Shown here: piece by piece, positions 2,279 through 13,324 of the stretch
Layout: every line of letters begins with the position of its first letter
Position numbering within the stretch: the first letter of the stretch is position 1
From: a virus
Strand: one strand, 5' to 3'
DNA: 20,426 bases
IMG/VR virus record: IMGVR_UViG_3300031607_000027
Location: 1 to 20,426 of that record
The notes under the pieces: generated by a model
Told to the model about the DNA's origin: nothing
What the model saw: the letters and a program-made list of their open reading frames with translations, nothing else
Database searches by the model: none
Made by a program: the position numbers and the translations under genes

Positions 2279-2569
2279 TCAGCCGCCCGGGCCGAAGACC
2301 TTCAGCTTCAGGGCGATGCCTGCGAGCAGCGCCAGGATGATGCCGGTGGTGATCAGGCGCACCGTGGTCTGCACGGCGGTGCGGCGCACGAAGCGGATCG
2401 AGGCCAGCAGGGAGCGCAGATCGCGGATGTCGAGCGCGGCCTCTGTACCATCGAGCCCAACATCCGCCAGCGCGCGCCGGGCCCCTTCCTCGGCGGCCCG
2501 CGCAAGCAATTCCTCGAACTCGGCATCCGGCATGCGGACATGGCCCTCTCCGGAACGGCGCGGGCTCAT
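2279..2569 (-). CDS. DUF6127-family small membrane protein
   Basis: A 96-residue protein. The N-terminal two thirds are acidic and helical (FEELLARAAEEGARRALADVG, split by an A/G-rich stretch, then LDIRDLRSLL). The C-terminus is a single hydrophobic helix at about residues 72-90 (LITTGIILALLAGIALKLKV). This matches the DUF6127 family, found in alphaproteobacterial prophages near tail and lysis genes, whose function is unknown. Its ATG overlaps the stop of the preceding tail gene as ATGA. The position just before the endolysin and the single membrane helix make a holin-like or lysis-modulating role possible, but that is inference. Confidence 0.65.
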   Translation of the reverse strand: MSPRRSGEGHVRMPDAEFEELLARAAEEGARRALADVGLDGTEAALDIRDLRSLLASIRFVRRTAVQTTVRLITTGIILALLAGIALKLKVFGPGG

Positions 2570-3564
2570 GCGGACAGGATCCCGGTTTCGGTCGGCAGGG
2601 TCAGATCGCTCCAGGGACTGTTATCGACGGGATTGAGCGCCCACGTCGAATATACCGACTTTGGGGCGACGATGGGCACCGTTACAGCCGCCGCATCATG
2701 ATCAACGCCACCCATGCGCAGGAACCCTGCCGTCGCTTGCGGCCCGTTGGTGCCTGCCTGCGCGATCTGCTTGAGATGCACGCCTGCCACGGCCGATATG
2801 GCAGTCGGGCCCGTGGGGCCGCTGAGGGAAAAGGAGAGACGCTGACCTGCCAGAGTGCTGGCAACGCGGGATGCGAGATTGCCATCCTTGAGCGCATCGA
2901 TGCTGCCGATCATCTCACTATAGGTTGCCAGAGTATTGGGAACACGGCGGACGAAGCGCCGCCCAATGGTGGAAACACCATCGAGGATTGCGATATGGGC
3001 GTAATACCAGGCATGATTGGAAAACGTGCCATGCAGACCACCATTCCCGAAAACCAGATGTGCCGGCTTACCCTTGCCACCGGTGTTGGCCGCCGTGGCC
3101 GTGCTCTGCAGCACACCGTCGACGAAAAACTCGATGGTGATATCGGTATCGACCGCCAGCCGGACATCGACCCATTGCGGCTGGCCGCTGGTGGCAAAGT
3201 AGCTCGATGATCCTTGTTCGATCGTGTCGCCATGGGCTTCGGCATGATAGCGGTTGGTGCTGCTTAGGGGTCGGACCCGGGCAAGCAGGGCATTGCTGGC
3301 GCTGAAGAAGTCGAGGAAGGTCGCACCGGATTCAGTGATGGTATGCGCATCTCCGCTGGGCGGCACATAACGAAAGCCCAGCCAGAGATCCCCTGTTGGC
3401 GGGGCATGCGGTATTCTGAACGGCGTATAAACGCTACGCGCGCCGGTGAACCGTAGCGCATTGACGTCCAGGGTTGCGTCAAACCCTGCCGTGACTGTGC
3501 TGAGATATCCCGAGATGCCGGAAATATCCGTGGGCTGATGGCCCAGATGCAGGATGTGTGTCAT
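2566..3564 (-). CDS. Tail protein with concanavalin A/LamG-like lectin fold, putative receptor binding
   Basis: A 332-residue protein. Residues about 25-215 look like a beta-rich concanavalin-like jelly roll. It begins with a strand around FDATLDVNALRFTG, continues with DLWLGFRYVPPSG, and then WVDVRLAVDTDITIEFFVDGVLQST. The last block is the 'x-V-x-(I/V)-x-x-D-G-x-x' strand pair typical of LamG/pentraxin modules. The C-terminal 120 residues end with YSTWALNPVDNSPW, a pattern common at the end of phage tail-fibre proteins. It is the last of three coupled genes downstream of the J-like tip protein (ATGA overlaps on both sides), so a receptor- or glycan-binding role at the tail tip is likely. 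No exact family is recognised. Confidence 0.65.
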   Translation of the reverse strand: MTHILHLGHQPTDISGISGYLSTVTAGFDATLDVNALRFTGARSVYTPFRIPHAPPTGDLWLGFRYVPPSGDAHTITESGATFLDFFSASNALLARVRPLSSTNRYHAEAHGDTIEQGSSSYFATSGQPQWVDVRLAVDTDITIEFFVDGVLQSTATAANTGGKGKPAHLVFGNGGLHGTFSNHAWYYAHIAILDGVSTIGRRFVRRVPNTLATYSEMIGSIDALKDGNLASRVASTLAGQRLSFSLSGPTGPTAISAVAGVHLKQIAQAGTNGPQATAGFLRMGGVDHDAAAVTVPIVAPKSVYSTWALNPVDNSPWSDLTLPTETGILSA

Positions 3565-4430
3565 GGCAGTTCCACTTCGATATAGAGGGTTGCATGCGCA
3601 GCGGTGAGCAAGCTGCTGCCGCCATGCTCGATAAAGATTGATGCGACAGAGGTGGTCAGGCGGGTATCGCCGCCCAAGTCGATCCAGAGATCAGCCGCCC
3701 CAATGGTAAGGTCCTTGTCCCAAGCGAACTCGATGAAGGCATGGGCCTCAAAAATGCGTAGGTCGGGTTCCTCAAAGCCAAGCGCGCGCACGCCGGGCGG
3801 GACCGGATAGCTGAACTGCGAGGGCTGCGAGCGCATGGTGCCGCCGTCGCCGGGATTGCGTCCCTGGATCTGTGGGTAGAAGGCAGCGCTGCCACCGGCG
3901 GTCCATGTTGGCGCCCCGCTCACAGGGTCGTCGCGCCAGATGCCGTTCTTTCCGATCCAGAGACTGGCGGCAGCTGGGTCAAGCACGAACATCAGCACAT
4001 CGCCTGCGCCATAGGTTGGCATGCCGGTGATGCGCTGGGATGCGGTGGAGGTGTCGGACGACCAAAGTGATCCGTTGCCGCGATAGCCGATCGAGCCAAG
4101 CGTGATCGGGTTGTTGCCGGTATTGAACTCCTCGCGCTGCGCGGCCGAGACGACGCCCATATACCCGTCGAAGCTGGCGGCCCCGCTGGCCGCGCAGAGC
4201 ACCTCCCAATAACGTCGCCCATCCGAGGGCAGGATCGCCTTCGTGGTGGGCACCCAGCGCTGATAGTTGGTCCCGCCCGAGGTATTCACGGCGGTCTGGT
4301 TGCCATCCGACAGCGTGTAGCCCGGAGGGCGACGGGTTGTGTCGAGTTGCCAGACTGAGCCGATGTCGACCGGCGGCGCGCTATCGCCACCCTGCGCCAG
4401 GATTGCTGCGCGCATCATGAAAAGGCTCAC
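3561..4430 (-). CDS. Tail protein with SPRY (B30.2-like) domain
   Basis: A 289-residue protein. The start was taken as the GTG at 4430, which overlaps the previous stop as GTGA; an in-frame ATG at 4418 is the alternative. Residues about 36-215 read as a SPRY domain: RRYWEV near 72, a DGYMGVV strand near 88-94, GSIGYRGNGSLWSSD, then PTYGAGDVLMFVLDPAAASL and WIGKNGIW, and finally AFYPQIQG. The YWEV ... GD-x-(I/L)-x-x-x-(L/V)-D ... (W/F)-x-x-NG ... YP order is the SPRY hallmark. The C-terminal 75 residues contain repeated beta units (FIEFAWD, LWIDLGGDTRL, IFIEHGGSSLL, LYIEVEL). SPRY folds bind proteins or glycans; in this position the likely job is host or virion recognition. Confidence 0.7.
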   Translation of the reverse strand: MSLFMMRAAILAQGGDSAPPVDIGSVWQLDTTRRPPGYTLSDGNQTAVNTSGGTNYQRWVPTTKAILPSDGRRYWEVLCAASGAASFDGYMGVVSAAQREEFNTGNNPITLGSIGYRGNGSLWSSDTSTASQRITGMPTYGAGDVLMFVLDPAAASLWIGKNGIWRDDPVSGAPTWTAGGSAAFYPQIQGRNPGDGGTMRSQPSQFSYPVPPGVRALGFEEPDLRIFEAHAFIEFAWDKDLTIGAADLWIDLGGDTRLTTSVASIFIEHGGSSLLTAAHATLYIEVELP

Positions 4431-5104
4431 GTCACGGCCCCCGCCAGCGCACCCTGAATGACCCAGGCATCGGCCCCGCGCTTCACGAGTGCTGCGCCCG
4501 ACCATTGGCCATCGAGCGCGACGGAGCCGCCGGTCACCCCATTGAGCGACACACCCGGTGCCGCCGCGACCGTGGCGATCCCAGCGCCGACTTGCGTGAC
4601 ATTGATCAGCGTGCCGATCTCGAAAGGTGCCGATGATTCAGGCTGGATCGTTACGGTGACGGCCGAGGAGCCAGTCGTCTCTAGGATGCTGCCCAGATCA
4701 TCGGCTTCCAGCGTGTGACTGGTGGCCGTCAGCGTCCGGATCCGCACCACCCCGGGCCGGGGCACCTCGACCCAAGCCCCTCCGGTGAACCGCACATGCT
4801 GCGCCTCGTCGGCGATCCAGATCTGCCAGCCCTCCTCGGGGGTGAGGTAGACCCATGCCGGGGCACCGGCTGGCGATTGGTCCCATAGCGCCAGCGCATT
4901 GGCATTGGCACCTGCCGTGGCGGGCACAATGGCGATCTGGCCCGCGGTGCCGGTGGCAGGCAATGGGGCGGTCCGCGATGTGGCGCGCCCTTGAACCAGT
5001 GCCGAGAGGTGACGCAGGTCTTCGCTGAGGCTGGTGCCCCAGTTGCGCTGGCCGGGGTCATAGAAGGCGCGCAGCCCCAGTCCCGGCATGATCCGTTCGG
5101 GCAT
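4427..5104 (-). CDS. DUF2793-domain tail protein
   Basis: A 225-residue protein if started at ATG 5104; a GTG at 5116 and an ATG at 5089 are also in frame, and no strong ribosome site decides between them. The first 20 residues (GLRAFYDPGQRNWGTSLSED) resemble the opening of proteins carrying DUF2793. Residues about 50-115 contain the domain itself, with APAWVYLTPEEGWQIWIADE and then HVRFTGGAWVEV. The rest is a beta-rich, glycine/threonine-rich region (LEADDLGSILETTG, VTVTIQPESSAPF), typical of phage fibre or baseplate accessories. The gene sits between the J-like tip gene and the SPRY gene and overlaps the latter, so it is probably a structural component of the tail tip. Confidence 0.7.
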   Translation of the reverse strand: MPERIMPGLGLRAFYDPGQRNWGTSLSEDLRHLSALVQGRATSRTAPLPATGTAGQIAIVPATAGANANALALWDQSPAGAPAWVYLTPEEGWQIWIADEAQHVRFTGGAWVEVPRPGVVRIRTLTATSHTLEADDLGSILETTGSSAVTVTIQPESSAPFEIGTLINVTQVGAGIATVAAAPGVSLNGVTGGSVALDGQWSGAALVKRGADAWVIQGALAGAVT

Positions 5105-5179
5105 GCTTGGTCTCACTTGTCGTTGTGAAGGTGGTGGTAATGCTGGCGCTCGCGACAGCGTCGAGCCGAATGATCGTGG
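5105..5179. other. Gap after the tip-protein gene
   Basis: About 75 bp separates the J-like stop codon from the chosen start of the DUF2793 gene, unusual in an operon where most genes overlap. One minus-strand frame stays open through the gap (TTIIRLDAVASASITTT) and beyond, but it has no credible start codon, so it is not called as a gene. It may be the remnant of a small gene. Confidence 0.4.
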
Positions 5180-8100
5180 TCAGGTGCCCCAGAGAAAGCC
5201 CCAGCCGCGATCCCAACCGGCAGCGAAGGGTGCGGTCAACTGGTACCGGCGCGCTTCCTGGTCGATGAGCCATGTGCCTCCGACCAGCCGGCGCGACCGG
5301 ACGGCAATATCGATCTCGGCGGTGCGCTCGGGCGCGCCACTCTCGGGGATGTCCTCGGGCGTCAGCGTCCAGTTCGTCCCTATGCCAGCGTCGATGACGA
5401 TGCCGGGCGGCATCAGGGCCACACCCGTATCCGGATCGACCCAGCGCACCTCAATTGCATAGCCGACGCTCGGCTCAGGCCCAACGGAGCCACCCGTATG
5501 ATCGACGATGACCGGGCTGGTCTGCGTCAGGCGGTCGCGATGGGTCCAGGTGAGGACGAGATCATCTGCGATCAGCGCATCGACATCCGGCGCGTAGCTG
5601 CCGTTGGCTTGCACCCGCCCGGGTGGCAGGGGGCGGATGGCACGCCTGTTCAGCGTCACGCTGTCTTCCGGGGCGAGCGCAAACGCCAGCGTGCCACGCC
5701 CGGTCTCAGGCAGCAGCCGGACCGCGAGGGTCTCACCCGCCGCCCAGGAGTCTTCGGTGATCCGCGCGCCCTCGTCGAAGAAGATCACCGGAGTTCCCGC
5801 CGTATGGACGCGCGGCACGGTGTCGAGGCAACCCCGGCCCACGGTGATGGCCGTGGCGGTGATCCCGTCGACGCGAACCAGTTCGCCATCGATGCTGGCC
5901 AGCGTGCCGATGCCAACCTCGCCAATGTCGCGCCAGCTGGTGACCGGGATGACGCGCGCCTCCGGGTGGTCCGACATATCGGCCGACAACAACGCCGTGG
6001 GCGCAAAGGCGACTACGCCTTCCTGCGCGGGACCGGTGCCGGGATCGATCCAGAGCTCGGCCGCCAGCGCGTCGGCGCTGGGTCGTTCGCCGGTGGCGAC
6101 CAGCGCGCCCGCGTCCGGATCCTCCGCAAGAATGCGGTCAGCCTCAGAGTGACCCAACTCGCGAACCAACAGCCAGTATGGGGCTTCTTTGACCATACGG
6201 CGCGTCAGCGCCCGTGGCGGTGCGGCGACTCCAGTGCCGGTTGGCATGCGCCCGCCAGCAATGGCGGTGGCACCCATCGCAAACACATCCTCAGCGAGCT
6301 TCAGCCGGATGCCGTTGTCGCGACCGTCGCCCTGACCGATCTCGGAGATGCGCATGACTACGTCATTGAGTCCCAGCCGACCTGACCGCAGCCGGATCAC
6401 ATCGCCAGGCCCGAGGTCCGCGCCTTGCCGGTTCACCACGATCTCACCTGACAGCAGCGGAACCGAAAGGGCGCGCAGGTCGCGCTCGGCCACGCGGATT
6501 GCCAGCCCCTGGTAGCGGATGCCGGGATAATCGAGCGTGGTCGCGATGACCTCGCCCATGGCCTGTACCCGCGCCGTGTCGGTGACGCTGACAGCGCCCG
6601 TATCGTCCGTCCAGGCGTCCGTGAAGCGCACGGTGACGCTGTTGACGAGGTCCGAGGGCGCGCGCCGTCCGAGGCGGCCCCAGTCCACGACATTTGCTTC
6701 ATCAAAGAGTGGCAGGTTTGCTGCCACATAATCCGCCCGGATCAGCTTCAACTCCCAAAGCCCGGTGCGGCGGTCGATGAACAGCGTGGCGTCGATGTGG
6801 TCGAGAACGCTGCCAATGAACTCCTCGATCGAGCTGTCCTGCTGCCAGATCAGCGACAGCCCGAAGCCTTCGATGTAAAGCGCATCTGCCGCGCCCATGA
6901 AACTCGCCCCGATCTCGACTGTGGAATAGCCCAGACCCCAATCGCGGTTGGTGAGGCACTCGCGGATGATATGAGCCGGGTTCATGTCCGGCCCGTTGCC
7001 GAAGGCCCCGCGCAGAGAGGCCACCAGCGCTTGCGGGTTCCCAGGTGGGATGACCGGCACACCGTCGACGGGCGTGTTGTCGATGCGCGCGGTGAAGGTC
7101 GTATTGGCCAGTGCGATGTTGAATCCAAAGATATCGGCAGGCGGCAGGGTGGCGATGGTGGCGAGTGCTGCATCAACCGAAGAGACTGGCGATGGCTCGC
7201 CATCTGTTACGAAGATGACGATCCTGCGCTTGGACCCGCCACCGGCAAAAAAGGTCGCCGCTTGCGAGAATGCTGCGTTGAAGCTGGTGCCGCCTGAGGT
7301 GCTGTTCGACAGCGCAAGCATCCAGGCCTCGAGCGCCACATAGTCCTCTGGCCCCATGTCGCGTCGTTCAATTGCACCTGCGACGCCCGCATTCCACAGC
7401 ACGAGGCGCATATCATTCGGCCTGTCAGGATCGACCCCCGCCCCGATCTCGCGGATCAGCGCCGCGACGCCTGCTTTTTGCGCCGCCATGCGGGTTCCCG
7501 ACATCGAGCCTGAGACGTCAAGCGCGATGTAGATCGCCGCATCCGAGATATTTGCCTCAGGCACGATGGGTGCCTTGTCCGGATACCATTGTACTGAGCC
7601 CGCTTCACCGATCAGCACCCGGGTCACGCGGACCGCCCATGGCTTCAGATAAGGATTGATACCGAGGTACACCTGCCGCAGCACCAGGCTGCAGAGCCCG
7701 CGATAGCCGGGTACATCACCGCTCATGCGCGCTGCCAGATAGTCGTTCTGTCCCTGGCCCGGCCCGCCCATCAGCACATCGACATTACCGACGATCCCAC
7801 CCTCCCGGCTTTCTCCACCAAAGAGGTCCGGCTTGTCGATCCGGATGCGTCCGCCACCCGCACCGGCATTGCTGGCGGCAGTCGTGGCCTCAAACACCTC
7901 GACCGACTGCGCCGGGAAGCTCAGCCCCTCGGGCAGTACGGACCAGGAGGTGACATTTGTCACTGCACTAAAGGCCACACCGCGCAGTGTGATGCTCTGG
8001 CTCGAGCCATTCGCCAGTCGCAGCCGGTAGTCCCGGCCGATCCGCACCCCGGCCTGTGTACCGGAAAAGGTGATCGTGGCACTGGTATCGCCAGCGAGGG

Positions 8101-8311
8101 CCGCGGTGGCTGCCATGCCCGCAACCGTGCCGATGCGCGTCTCCACGGCCGCGCCCCCGCCCGAGACACCGCTGCCTGTGGTGACCGACCAGGCTGTGCG
8201 GCGGTCGACAAGGATTTCGCGGATGGCATCGATCGGCCCGTGGCAAAGGGCCATATGCATTCCGAGCGAATACCGAAAACCGACCGTCTGCGCCTTGCTA
8301 CGCCCGCCCAT
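5180..8311 (-). CDS. J-like tail tip / host-specificity protein with an inserted von Willebrand A domain
   Basis: A 1043-residue protein, the largest in the window. The start ATG has GGAGGT 5 nt upstream and overlaps the previous gene by 14 bp. Residues 1-250 form the N-terminal tip region (GGRSKAQTVGFRYSLGMHMA, HGPIDAIREI, LKPWAVRVTR, WYPDKAPI). Residues about 258-435 are a complete VWA domain: DVSGSMSG with MIDAS residues D265, S267 and S269, T342 in SGGTSF, and D370 in IVIFVTDGEP. The tip-protein scaffold resumes at about 440 with DMNPAHIIRECLTNRDWGLGY, a hallmark of the 'phage-tail 3' type region, and continues with fibronectin-like and beta-rich segments to the end (WGFLWGT). In lambda-like phages this protein closes the tail tip and contacts the host receptor. 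The VWA insertion is not part of the usual architecture. Confidence 0.88.
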   Translation of the reverse strand: MGGRSKAQTVGFRYSLGMHMALCHGPIDAIREILVDRRTAWSVTTGSGVSGGGAAVETRIGTVAGMAATAALAGDTSATITFSGTQAGVRIGRDYRLRLANGSSQSITLRGVAFSAVTNVTSWSVLPEGLSFPAQSVEVFEATTAASNAGAGGGRIRIDKPDLFGGESREGGIVGNVDVLMGGPGQGQNDYLAARMSGDVPGYRGLCSLVLRQVYLGINPYLKPWAVRVTRVLIGEAGSVQWYPDKAPIVPEANISDAAIYIALDVSGSMSGTRMAAQKAGVAALIREIGAGVDPDRPNDMRLVLWNAGVAGAIERRDMGPEDYVALEAWMLALSNSTSGGTSFNAAFSQAATFFAGGGSKRRIVIFVTDGEPSPVSSVDAALATIATLPPADIFGFNIALANTTFTARIDNTPVDGVPVIPPGNPQALVASLRGAFGNGPDMNPAHIIRECLTNRDWGLGYSTVEIGASFMGAADALYIEGFGLSLIWQQDSSIEEFIGSVLDHIDATLFIDRRTGLWELKLIRADYVAANLPLFDEANVVDWGRLGRRAPSDLVNSVTVRFTDAWTDDTGAVSVTDTARVQAMGEVIATTLDYPGIRYQGLAIRVAERDLRALSVPLLSGEIVVNRQGADLGPGDVIRLRSGRLGLNDVVMRISEIGQGDGRDNGIRLKLAEDVFAMGATAIAGGRMPTGTGVAAPPRALTRRMVKEAPYWLLVRELGHSEADRILAEDPDAGALVATGERPSADALAAELWIDPGTGPAQEGVVAFAPTALLSADMSDHPEARVIPVTSWRDIGEVGIGTLASIDGELVRVDGITATAITVGRGCLDTVPRVHTAGTPVIFFDEGARITEDSWAAGETLAVRLLPETGRGTLAFALAPEDSVTLNRRAIRPLPPGRVQANGSYAPDVDALIADDLVLTWTHRDRLTQTSPVIVDHTGGSVGPEPSVGYAIEVRWVDPDTGVALMPPGIVIDAGIGTNWTLTPEDIPESGAPERTAEIDIAVRSRRLVGGTWLIDQEARRYQLTAPFAAGWDRGWGFLWGT
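7007..7540 (-). other. VWA (MIDAS) domain coding segment inside the tip-protein gene
   Basis: This segment encodes residues about 258-435 of the tip protein. It has the alternating strand/helix pattern of a Rossmann-type VWA fold, with IYIALDVSGSMSG, then MRLVLWNAG, then KRRIVIFVTDGEP and ADIFGFNIALANTT. All MIDAS elements (DxSxS, T, D) are present, so metal-dependent ligand binding is plausible. It is bordered by the tip-protein motifs WYPDKAPI and DMNPAHII. Confidence 0.85.
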
Positions 8312-9697: not shown

Positions 9698-10875
9698 TGT
9701 GGAACCTCGATAACCGGCAGGGTCAGTTCGCTTGCGACTGCCCCGTGCTGGATCTCCACCCGGTCGGCGTCGGCGCGCACTGCGTTCAGAAAATACACCT
9801 TCGCGCCGATTGGCACTGGTTCGCCAAGGTTTGAGGAAATTGTCAGCCGATGGTCCAGTCCGTCTGCAATGGCGGCGGTGATAGAGCGAAACCGTAGCGC
9901 ACCAGTCATCTCGAACATGATACGGCGGCCGACATAGGATGTGAGCGGTGCGATCGGCGCCACACGCATGATCACCGAGCCCGAGGTCATCGCTGCGCGC
10001 AACTGCAGCTCACGCCCCCATGTCGGCAGCCAGAAGCTGGCCTGGCGTCCGCGCAGCGACCATAGCCAGCGGCGCAGGGCGTCTCTTGCGGCGGGGCCCC
10101 GGGCCTTCAGTGTGATCGCCTCGCCGCGCTCGAACACATCGCGCATCGGTTCAACCATTACGGGCCCGAAGCCGTTGTCGACATACTCGACCGCGCGGCG
10201 CAGGCTGGCGCTCAGCGGGCCACGGACAAGGCTTGGGTCTGTCTGGACACGCCGATTCAGATAGGTCGGCAGCGTCGGAGCCGCGAGGTCGGGGGCGCCG
10301 CGCAGTAAAAAGCTGGCCGTCACCGTGCCATCGCCCTGCCTGCGCCGCGTGATCTGCACAGCCGAGGGCAGCAGACCTGGGCGGATCGGCATGATTGTGA
10401 TCCGGCGGGCCGATACCGCCTGATCGGGCAGGTGCAGATCGGGCAGTCCCATATCCAAAGGCGCTGCCAGGATCAGCCTGTCGGCCTCCACGGCTGCGAT
10501 CTCCACCAACCCGACCGCGCCGCCGTCTACAGCGATCCCGGCCAGCCCTACTGCCCTAAAATCCGAGACTGCCGTGTCCAGAGGGATCTGCGTCATCCCC
10601 GCTACCAGATCAGCGGCAGGCTGGAGCGCCATGTGCCACAGCGGCACCCGCCATTCCCCCGCAAAGCTCGCCCGCACCAGTTCCGCCGCGCGCGCCATGC
10701 CCAGTGCATCCAGCCGGTGGCGAAACGTGACGATCTCGCGTGGGCGGGGGCGGAGCGCGATGCGCTGTTCGTCGGCGCGCGATGACAGCACGTCGGTGCG
10801 CCATTCCAGCACCTCGGTGATTTCCTGCGCTGCCGGGAAGGGCCAGAGCGGTGGCGTATCTCCCACTTCAGGCAT
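9694..10875 (-). CDS. Putative distal tail protein
   Basis: A 393-residue protein conserved in position between the tape measure and the L-like hub gene; I cannot attach a named domain with certainty. It begins PLWPFPAAQEITEVLEWRTDVL and continues with repeated beta segments. Two similar halves may be present, each with an aromatic 'F/W-R-x-P-L/F-W'-like stretch (GEWRVPLWHMAL near residue 75 and RQASFWLPTWGREL near residue 290). GRQASFWLPTW resembles the 'FWLP(S/T)W/F' segment that I associate with distal-tail (Dit/gpM-like) proteins. The start overlaps the tape-measure stop by 8 bp and the end overlaps the hub gene as ATGA. A distal ring at the end of the tail tube is the expected role. Confidence 0.6.
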   Translation of the reverse strand: MPEVGDTPPLWPFPAAQEITEVLEWRTDVLSSRADEQRIALRPRPREIVTFRHRLDALGMARAAELVRASFAGEWRVPLWHMALQPAADLVAGMTQIPLDTAVSDFRAVGLAGIAVDGGAVGLVEIAAVEADRLILAAPLDMGLPDLHLPDQAVSARRITIMPIRPGLLPSAVQITRRRQGDGTVTASFLLRGAPDLAAPTLPTYLNRRVQTDPSLVRGPLSASLRRAVEYVDNGFGPVMVEPMRDVFERGEAITLKARGPAARDALRRWLWSLRGRQASFWLPTWGRELQLRAAMTSGSVIMRVAPIAPLTSYVGRRIMFEMTGALRFRSITAAIADGLDHRLTISSNLGEPVPIGAKVYFLNAVRADADRVEIQHGAVASELTLPVIEVPQ

Positions 10876-13324
10876 TCATGGCACTCCGGTTGCGGCGGAT
10901 GACATTCAGGATCGCGCGCTCGCCCGAGGGTGTGGCGAGATAGTCGCCGACCACCGAGGGGTCGAGCACGTTGATGATGCGCGTCGACATGTCGGCGGCC
11001 GATGACGGGCTGGCTGCACCATTCATCTCCACCCCGAGCCGCCCGTCGCGGCCGCGGCGCAGGGGCAGGATTGCCTCGGGTCCAGCCTCGCCCATCAGCC
11101 CGATGCCGCGTGAGAACGGAAACACTGTGGGGCGGTTGACGACGCCGCCGCGCGCGAAGGCGGTCAGTTCCTGGCCACCCGCAAAGACACCACCGCGTGC
11201 AAAGCCGAACAGGCTCGCGAGGAACCCACCGCCGCCACCCCCGCCGCCAGAGAAGGCATTGATCAGCGCATTCTCGATCGGCTTGAAGGCCAGATCGATC
11301 AGCCGGCCCGCGAGGTTCTGGGCAATGCGCGAAACCGCGCCCGCAAAGATCTCCCAGGTGAATTCGCCAGATTTGAGCGCCTCCTTGATGGGGCCGGTGA
11401 TGTCCTGCGCCAGACCTTCGGCGATCTCGCGCGAGCGTTCTTGAGCTGCCCGCACCGCCTCTGCCGTGGATTGCCAAGCCGTTTTGGCGGAGTCGGCGGC
11501 CTCGCTTAGGGCTCCGCCCGCAGCACGCCCGCTTTCACCCACGCGCGCCGCTGCTTCGCCAGTCGCATCGATTGCATCCTCGAGCCCCTCGGTAGCGACG
11601 CGCGCGCCTGTCAGCCCTGCCTCCGCCACCAGCCCGCTTGCAGTGACGGCCTCCCGAAGTGCCGCAACCGACTCGAGGGGAGCCGTCGCGGCACCGACCA
11701 CACCGGCCATCATCTCGCGCAGGGCATCTGCCTCGGCGCGGGCCTCAGTAGCATATTGGCCCAGCCCGAGATCGGGCAGTGCAATCGGCTCGGACGTGAA
11801 CGCCGCCTGAAACGCCGCGCGAGCTTGCGCACCTGCCTCGGTCGCGGAGCCTGCGAACGGGTTGTCGACCCGGCCAAGCTCCAGATTGCCGATCAGCGAG
11901 ATGCGGCGCTCCACACCCAGCGTCTCGAGCCCGGCGTTGATCCCCTCCAGAAACCCGTTGATGCGCTGGCCGACGCCGTTCAGCATCGCCTCGACGCCCG
12001 CGATCAGCGCATTCGCGGCCTGGAAGGTGAAATCCCCGATCGTGCCGGGCAGCGCGCCCCAGAGCACCTTGATGGCCTCGAACGCGCCCTGAAACGTGTT
12101 CAGCACGGCATTGCCAAAGCCGATCACGGCGACGAGTGAGGCCTGCAGCGCCTCGGCGATGGCGGCCTTGATCCGGGCCCAGCTGGCCATGATCGAAAGC
12201 CCCATCGCAACAGCGCCAAGCTGCATGCGCTGCCAGACCTCGCTGGCAAGATCGCCCAGCAGCGACAGCGCGGCGCCAAACCCGCCCGCGCCGCGCACCA
12301 ATCGAGCGAACCAGTGGATCAGCTCGCCCGCCGCCACGATCAGGCCGATGAACGGCAGGCGCAAGAGCGCGCCGCGCAGGATGACCAGCGCCATGGCGAG
12401 GCCCTGCACTGACACGGCGGCTGCGATCTTGGCTGCTACGAACCGCCCGGCCAGCAGTGCGGCGATGCCGGTTGCATAGGCTGTCAGACGACCAAGGTTC
12501 TCGAACAGTGTACGGATCGCAATCCCCAGCGGCCCGGTGGTGCGCGCAACAGCAGCCATGGCATTGGCCACGCCCTCCAGCGCAGGGGCTGCGGCGACCG
12601 CCAGCTGGTTCGAGAGCCCGCGCCAGATCAGACCTAACCGCGAGATCGCATCATTGGTACGCTCGATCTGCGCCGCGTCCTGATCGGACACCACCACGCC
12701 AAAGTCCCGCACGTCCTGCGTCGCCTGGCGCAGCGTCGCCGTGTCGATCCGCGTGAACATCAGCGCGGCCCGGTCCCCGAAAAGCTGCGACGCCACCGCC
12801 GCACGCTCGGCATCGGGCACGAACTCGGCCAGCCGGTCCTGAATGAGCGCGATGCGCTGATCGAGCGGCAGCGCCTGCAGCTCGGCAGCGGACAAGCGCA
12901 GCCGGTCGAGCGCGTCGACCGCAGGACCGGCTCCAGCTGCGGCCTGGCTCAGCCGCCGGGTCAGCTGCATCGTGGCCTGCTCGATCTGCCCCATCGACAC
13001 GCCCGCGAGATCGCCCGCGCGCGTCAGCACCTGAATGCTCTCGACCGTCGTGTCGAGCGAAGCCGCAAGCTTGGCCTGCGCGTCGACGGTCTGAAGCCCC
13101 GAGCGGATCATAGCTGTGGCCGCCGCCGCAATCGCGGCCGCCGCCGCCACCATCGCCACCCGCGCGCGTCGCGCAAAGGCCGCAAGCCGCGCATTCGCCA
13201 TTTCCATCTCGCGCGACAACCGGCCAAACCCGCGCGCTCCCGCCTCGCCAACGCCTTCCAGCTCGGCCTTCACTTGCCGCCCGCCAGTCGCGGACAGGCG
13301 GACAGAAACGCGTTTCTCGGTCAT
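10868..13324 (-). CDS. Tail tape measure protein
   Basis: An 818-residue protein. It starts VSVRLSATGGRQVKAELEGV, a typical opening for prophage tape measures, then has a hydrophobic alanine-rich helix at about 55-73, DTTVESIQVLTRAGDLAGVS (about 91-110), and a broad hydrophobic zone at about 280-340 that may enter the host membrane. The C-terminal part contains the usual glycine tract (eight Gly) followed by FLASLFGFARGGVF and GEAGPEAILPLRRG, the hallmark end of these proteins. The ATG has GGGAGG 6 nt upstream and overlaps the frameshifted chaperone stop as ATGA. If tail length scales at about 0.15 nm per residue, the tail should be about 120 nm long, which is an inference. Confidence 0.93.
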   Translation of the reverse strand: MTEKRVSVRLSATGGRQVKAELEGVGEAGARGFGRLSREMEMANARLAAFARRARVAMVAAAAAIAAAATAMIRSGLQTVDAQAKLAASLDTTVESIQVLTRAGDLAGVSMGQIEQATMQLTRRLSQAAAGAGPAVDALDRLRLSAAELQALPLDQRIALIQDRLAEFVPDAERAAVASQLFGDRAALMFTRIDTATLRQATQDVRDFGVVVSDQDAAQIERTNDAISRLGLIWRGLSNQLAVAAAPALEGVANAMAAVARTTGPLGIAIRTLFENLGRLTAYATGIAALLAGRFVAAKIAAAVSVQGLAMALVILRGALLRLPFIGLIVAAGELIHWFARLVRGAGGFGAALSLLGDLASEVWQRMQLGAVAMGLSIMASWARIKAAIAEALQASLVAVIGFGNAVLNTFQGAFEAIKVLWGALPGTIGDFTFQAANALIAGVEAMLNGVGQRINGFLEGINAGLETLGVERRISLIGNLELGRVDNPFAGSATEAGAQARAAFQAAFTSEPIALPDLGLGQYATEARAEADALREMMAGVVGAATAPLESVAALREAVTASGLVAEAGLTGARVATEGLEDAIDATGEAAARVGESGRAAGGALSEAADSAKTAWQSTAEAVRAAQERSREIAEGLAQDITGPIKEALKSGEFTWEIFAGAVSRIAQNLAGRLIDLAFKPIENALINAFSGGGGGGGGFLASLFGFARGGVFAGGQELTAFARGGVVNRPTVFPFSRGIGLMGEAGPEAILPLRRGRDGRLGVEMNGAASPSSAADMSTRIINVLDPSVVGDYLATPSGERAILNVIRRNRSAMNA

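Follow-up and report, generated by a model that had tools for sequence, protein, structure and literature searches.

The window analyzed here (i.e., the whole stretch of 20,426 bases) is a virus record whose minus strand carries a siphophage structural cluster, comprising portal, head protease, decoration protein, major head protein, tail tube, tape measure, distal tail, upper baseplate, and hub (Table 1). The hub gene follows the tape measure, distal tail, and upper baseplate genes, as is the case for hubs of the JBD30 gp53 type, and its product contains a von Willebrand A (VWA) domain with a MIDAS. Neither the upper baseplate protein nor the distal tail protein of the window carries a VWA, although each of them bears one in some relatives. 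In addition, no fiber genes lie between the tape measure and distal tail genes of the window, in which both the homologs of the JBD30 fiber proteins gp47 and gp48 and the fiber-holding N-terminal extension of the distal tail protein are absent. The three genes past the hub (2566-5116) encode a DUF2793 protein, a SPRY-like protein, and a LamG-like protein (the latter two being weak Pfam matches), and these could be additional receptor-binding or tail-fiber proteins. Since the nearest relatives of the hub in bacterial genomes (~78-91% identity) are from Rhodobacteraceae, such as Tabrizicola, Pseudotabrizicola, Rhodobacter, Roseovarius, and Pararhodobacter, this phage very probably infects a member of that family.

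Table 1. Features of the tail tip encoded in the window
Feature	Position	Strand	Evidence
Tail-tip hub (J-like) protein, 1043 aa	5180-8311	-	Phage-tail_3, 37.5 bits; homology to the JBD30 and Chi hubs
VWA domain in the exchangeable slot, hub residues 250-441	6989-7564	-	Pfam, slot alignment, predicted structure
MIDAS motif D265-V-S267-G-S269	7505-7519	-	D, S, and S each conserved in 53/54
MIDAS residue T342	7286-7288	-	Conserved in 52/54
MIDAS residue D370	7202-7204	-	Conserved in 53/54
Upper baseplate protein, 288 aa	8831-9697	-	Phage_phiJL001_Gp84_N and Phage_BR0599
Distal tail protein, 393 aa	9694-10875	-	Aligns to JBD30 gp49 (8rk3_U) only from residue 184
Tape measure protein	10868-13324	-	Distal tail gene directly next

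The hub is homologous to the solved hubs of phages JBD30 (8rk3; E = 6.5e-83) and Chi (8vjh; E = 7.7e-98), and the part of it that surrounds the VWA superimposes on the JBD30 hub (8rk3_b) with a VIA Z-score of 37.9 over 706 residues. The residues that flank the VWA map to positions 143 and 159 of the Chi hub and 139 and 147 of the JBD30 hub, and because they lie only 8-16 positions apart in these two proteins, the VWA is an insertion relative to both. The initial annotation had placed the domain between two conserved segments of a J-like protein, and the VWA-free JBD30 and Chi hubs now define the borders of that insertion. The VWA adjoins the initial stretch of conserved core that follows the slot.

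VWA domains serve metal-dependent adhesion in animal cells, parasites, and bacterial pili. Pfam VWA_2 matches hub residues 261-372 with a score of 32.5 bits (cut-off, 27; E = 1.5e-7). Our final AlphaFold model of the hub, built from a 70-sequence alignment, has a mean pLDDT of 87.7, with most of the VWA at 90 or above; an earlier model from 16 sequences (pTM, 0.32) rendered the hub poorly, a defect mended by the deeper alignment. In VIA-align comparisons, the VWA of the final model, which spans residues 255-439, matched ANTXR2/CMG2 and the VWA of an Aeromonas large adhesin with a Z-score of ~20 (rmsd of 2.3-2.4 over 169-177 residues) and integrin I domains with Z-scores of 18-19, and the VWA of the first model matched the pilus-tip protein Mfa5 with a Z-score of 18.1. 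The nearest solved structures are mostly adhesins and receptors; a baseplate chain of phage Milano (8fqc) appeared in the first Foldseek list and is not among the VIA-align matches listed. The initial annotation had read a full VWA with the MIDAS D265-x-S267-x-S269, T342, and D370 at 7007-7540. The Pfam score and the structural matches bear out the full domain, the predicted structure adopts the VWA fold, and the MIDAS residues occupy exactly those positions; the location also holds, with the domain itself slightly larger than first drawn. Among 54 nonredundant VWAs drawn from all three tip-protein locations described below, each MIDAS residue is kept in 52 or 53 (Table 1). One distal-tail VWA (locus L295) has lost the MIDAS (E, T, and A at key sites) and might offer a natural control for metal dependence.

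A VWA occupies the hub slot in 20 of the 758 phage records that have this hub, and the 13 phages behind these 20 records infect Bordetella, Erythrobacter, Xanthomonas, Stenotrophomonas, Variovorax, and Pseudomonas. In Rhodobacter phages RcSpartan and RcHartney (three further records), the domain lies in the distal tail protein. Most members of the hub family lack it, so it is not a constant part of J-like proteins. Slot contents were assessed in an alignment-based set of 57 nonredundant representatives, adopted in place of a regular-expression delineation that had missed many loci. In this set, the slot measures 3 aa in all 11 fiber phages and 11-16 aa in the 4 phages whose only VWA is in the distal tail protein, holds a VWA of 186-222 aa in 26, and holds other sequence of 120-341 aa in the remaining 16. 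One of these other domains is a LamG according to Pfam, and the rest have no Pfam name. The hub slot is fixed in position and exchangeable in content, being either empty or occupied by a VWA or another domain, and its content has changed at least 15 times on a hub tree built without the inserts. None of the representatives with a resolved slot lacks every module.

Several further features of these loci emerged from the survey. The non-VWA slots of loci L211, L212, and L304 and of L137, L215, L280, and L297 look like several unrelated beta-rich folds, and the slot domains of ~340 aa are perhaps beta-propellers. A single bacterial genome can contain as many as four loci of this phage family, all with VWA hubs, as in Roseovarius autotrophicus (L149, L164, L175, and L185) and likewise Alterinioella nitratireducens (L147, L172, L173, and L190). 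The hub gene is broken into several reading frames in L176 and L250 (Pseudorhodobacter aquimaris), L185, and L101, which points to decaying prophages or assembly errors.

The VWA is also found outside the hub. In the Rhodobacteraceae relatives Alexandriicola, Ruegeria PrR005, and Seohaeicola, with hubs of 58-61% identity, the hub slot is empty and the VWA resides in the distal tail protein, and Wenxinia marina hosts one VWA in each of the two proteins, the copies being 70% identical to each other. In alignments, the site of the distal-tail VWA corresponds to the border of domains III and IV of JBD30 gp49, and the site in RcSpartan is identical. A third location is the upper baseplate protein, and all 12 loci with a VWA there have one in the hub as well. 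In a tree of the VWAs, the distal-tail and upper-baseplate copies branch among the hub copies, which requires at least five changes of location. The sequences thus show a VWA that is not tied to the hub and moves among the hub, distal tail, and upper baseplate proteins. The initial annotation, which had called for a survey of independent swapping, is supported on this point by the changes of slot content on the hub tree and of host protein on the VWA tree; it was right in assigning the window's VWA to the hub and overlooked both the VWAs of the remaining tip proteins and the exclusivity with fibers described below. The long distal tail proteins of AAT-1 and Ab19 were also considered as VWA carriers and rejected, their extra part being the N-terminal fiber-holding region.

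Lateral fibers or separate tip proteins have previously been the explanation for how phages with this hub recognize their hosts. JBD30 attaches to type IV pili by its gp47/gp48 fibers, for which the distal tail and upper baseplate proteins serve as holders (PMC11445458). In AAT-1, homologs of gp47 and gp48 are encoded between the tape measure and distal tail genes, and the distal tail protein is longer; PaMx28, a phage of the same genus, has neither the fiber genes nor the distal-tail extension and carries two VWAs. Among the 233 loci with enough upstream sequence, a count that includes many near-copies, 51 have fibers together with the distal-tail extension and none of these has a VWA, and fibers are likewise absent from all 168 loci that have a VWA. 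A whole-genome search of eleven VWA phages found no fiber homologs, and the fiber-bearing controls were matched in 4 of 4 cases; phage Lucius, whose slot holds another domain, gave a weak fiber A match restricted to residues 88-165. Collectively, members of the hub family with JBD30-type fibers have an empty slot and no VWA, and the others have a VWA or another domain. In all four of the independent pairs on the hub tree, another module is present where the slot is empty (P = 0.125). This exclusivity of fibers and VWA is consistent and weakly replicated, since the hub tree has only two changes of the fiber trait. An initial version of that tree, in which the fiber phages formed one weak group, has been superseded.

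Within the clade of the window, the sequence entropy of the VWA is 0.44, in comparison with 0.30-0.34 for the hub core, 0.50 for the fibronectin type III (FN3)-like parts, and 0.72-0.77 for the C-terminal tail and an N-terminal insert. The variability of the VWA here is close to that of the FN3-like part and is not what would be seen in a classic host-range domain; a host ligand that is itself conserved, or docking of a virion partner through the MIDAS, would each account for it. The N-terminal insert is a second, smaller, all-beta insertion (window 7856-8188; hub residues 42-152) that is present in the Rhodobacteraceae clade, where no other part of the hub varies as much, and is reduced to 3-4 aa in nearly all other hubs compared.

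Given the company that the VWA keeps in the slot, its conserved MIDAS, its presence on three neighboring tip proteins, and the absence of fibers, we consider it probable (roughly 60%) that the VWA is a mobile, metal-dependent adsorption module that stands in for fibers and would bind the host directly. The domain would be plugged into the slot of a trimeric hub, and its three copies would face outward near the cell, an orientation suggested by the slot being a loop in the solved hubs and by the JBD30 trimer. A divalent ion, presumably held by the MIDAS, would bind a putative ligand on the host surface, such as pilin or another surface protein, and this grip would keep the virion in place up to the opening of the hub. 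In relatives, this task might be performed by a distal-tail VWA, by hub and upper-baseplate VWAs together, by another domain in the hub slot, or by lateral fibers of the JBD30 type. The exchange of the VWA with other domains resembles that of a phage receptor-binding domain; against this reading, other candidate receptor-binding proteins are encoded downstream of the hub. The metal-dependent adhesin proposed in the initial annotation is retained as the best explanation of the fold, the MIDAS, and the swapping, with host binding itself kept as a putative function. More tentatively, and with somewhat less than an even chance of being correct, we propose an integrin-like mode of siphophage adhesion, in which a MIDAS-dependent VWA moves among three tip proteins and replaces pilus-binding fibers, and each phage of the hub family draws from a small set of exchangeable devices.

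The MIDAS might instead grip an acidic residue of another virion protein, e.g., a receptor-binding protein encoded downstream, and so anchor that protein to the tip, in which case the VWA would replace not the fibers but the segment of the distal tail protein that holds them. The conservation of the VWA within the clade would suit such a docking port, as would the use of the distal-tail extension as a holder in fiber phages and the modular proteins of ~300 aa encoded downstream of the hub in several VWA phages. That downstream family is nevertheless present in only some VWA phages, on which ground the gene was rejected as an obligate companion of the VWA, and lectin-like domains fill the same slot in relatives; we regard docking as unlikely. 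The modular proteins beside the hub (~300-400 aa; L130:7849-8748, L131:7873-8760, L133:7823-8716, L134:7874-8791, L139:7836-8768, and L129:12676-13884) differ in their N-terminal parts and have a C-terminal domain of ~70 aa in common, and the two that were searched against Pfam matched no family. Less probable still is a purely structural or triggering role, whereby the VWA would steady the baseplate, or sense contact and aid hub opening, without binding the host. Its rather high conservation and its place in the hub beside the first core segment after the slot are in keeping with such a role, but hubs with empty slots exist in the same family and the VWA can sit on the distal tail protein instead. 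The initial annotation had also raised a force-sensitive switch for DNA release; a module that can be mounted either on the hub or on the ring of the distal tail protein would be better suited to gripping than to gating.

A further alternative bears on the replacement of fibers and not on the VWA itself, namely that the exclusivity reflects common descent only, with one fiber clade and one slot-domain clade and no functional substitution. The two changes of the fiber trait and the clustering of the labels on the hub tree are compatible with this, and tip genes may be swapped as a cassette. We nonetheless find it doubtful, as slot content itself has at least 15 changes, the empty slot is accompanied by another module in each of the four independent pairs, and every representative with a resolved slot has some module. 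If the adsorption reading is true, the VWA would represent a distinct mode of host gripping, in the form of a swappable plug on several tip proteins. It also yields a testable rule, i.e., fibers or a slot domain and not both, which PaMx28 and AAT-1 fit within one genus. Moreover, the slot would mark a place where tail hubs naturally accept inserted domains, and structures of related hubs have been solved.

The VWA label itself is already present in databases: a tail protein of Bordetella phage MW2, of the same family or domain as that of the window, is named "von Willebrand factor type A" in GenBank, and the annotated PHROG tail families 1101 and 15205 contain the domain. These entries are labels only, with no account of the slot, the copies, the MIDAS, or fiber replacement, and in the open-access papers searched we found no description of a siphophage tip with a VWA, of the domain moving among proteins, or of fibers being replaced. 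To that extent, the slot, the movement among tip proteins, and the proposed fiber replacement appear to be new.

Among known systems, the JBD30 baseplate (hub gp53, upper baseplate gp50, distal tail gp49, and fibers gp47/gp48; PDB 8rk3; PMC11445458) resembles the window in its homologous hub and distal tail proteins and its gene order, but it has fibers and an empty hub slot, whereas the window has a VWA in the slot and no fiber genes. The tail tip of phage Chi (PDB 8vjh) likewise has a homologous hub and distal tail protein, and its hub slot is short and lacks the VWA found in that of the window. Integrin I domains, ANTXR1/2, TRAP, the Aeromonas large adhesin (9das), and the Mfa5 pilus tip have the fold and MIDAS residues of the window's VWA; these domains are on cells or pili and are only ~10-20% identical to it, whereas the predicted VWA of the window is inserted in a phage tail hub. 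VWA domains have also been listed among the tail-fiber domains of eCIS (PMC12923769), where they are likewise on the targeting part of a phage-tail-like particle. Those particles are contractile injection systems that carry the domain in fiber proteins, whereas here it is carried by the hub, distal tail, or upper baseplate protein of a siphophage.
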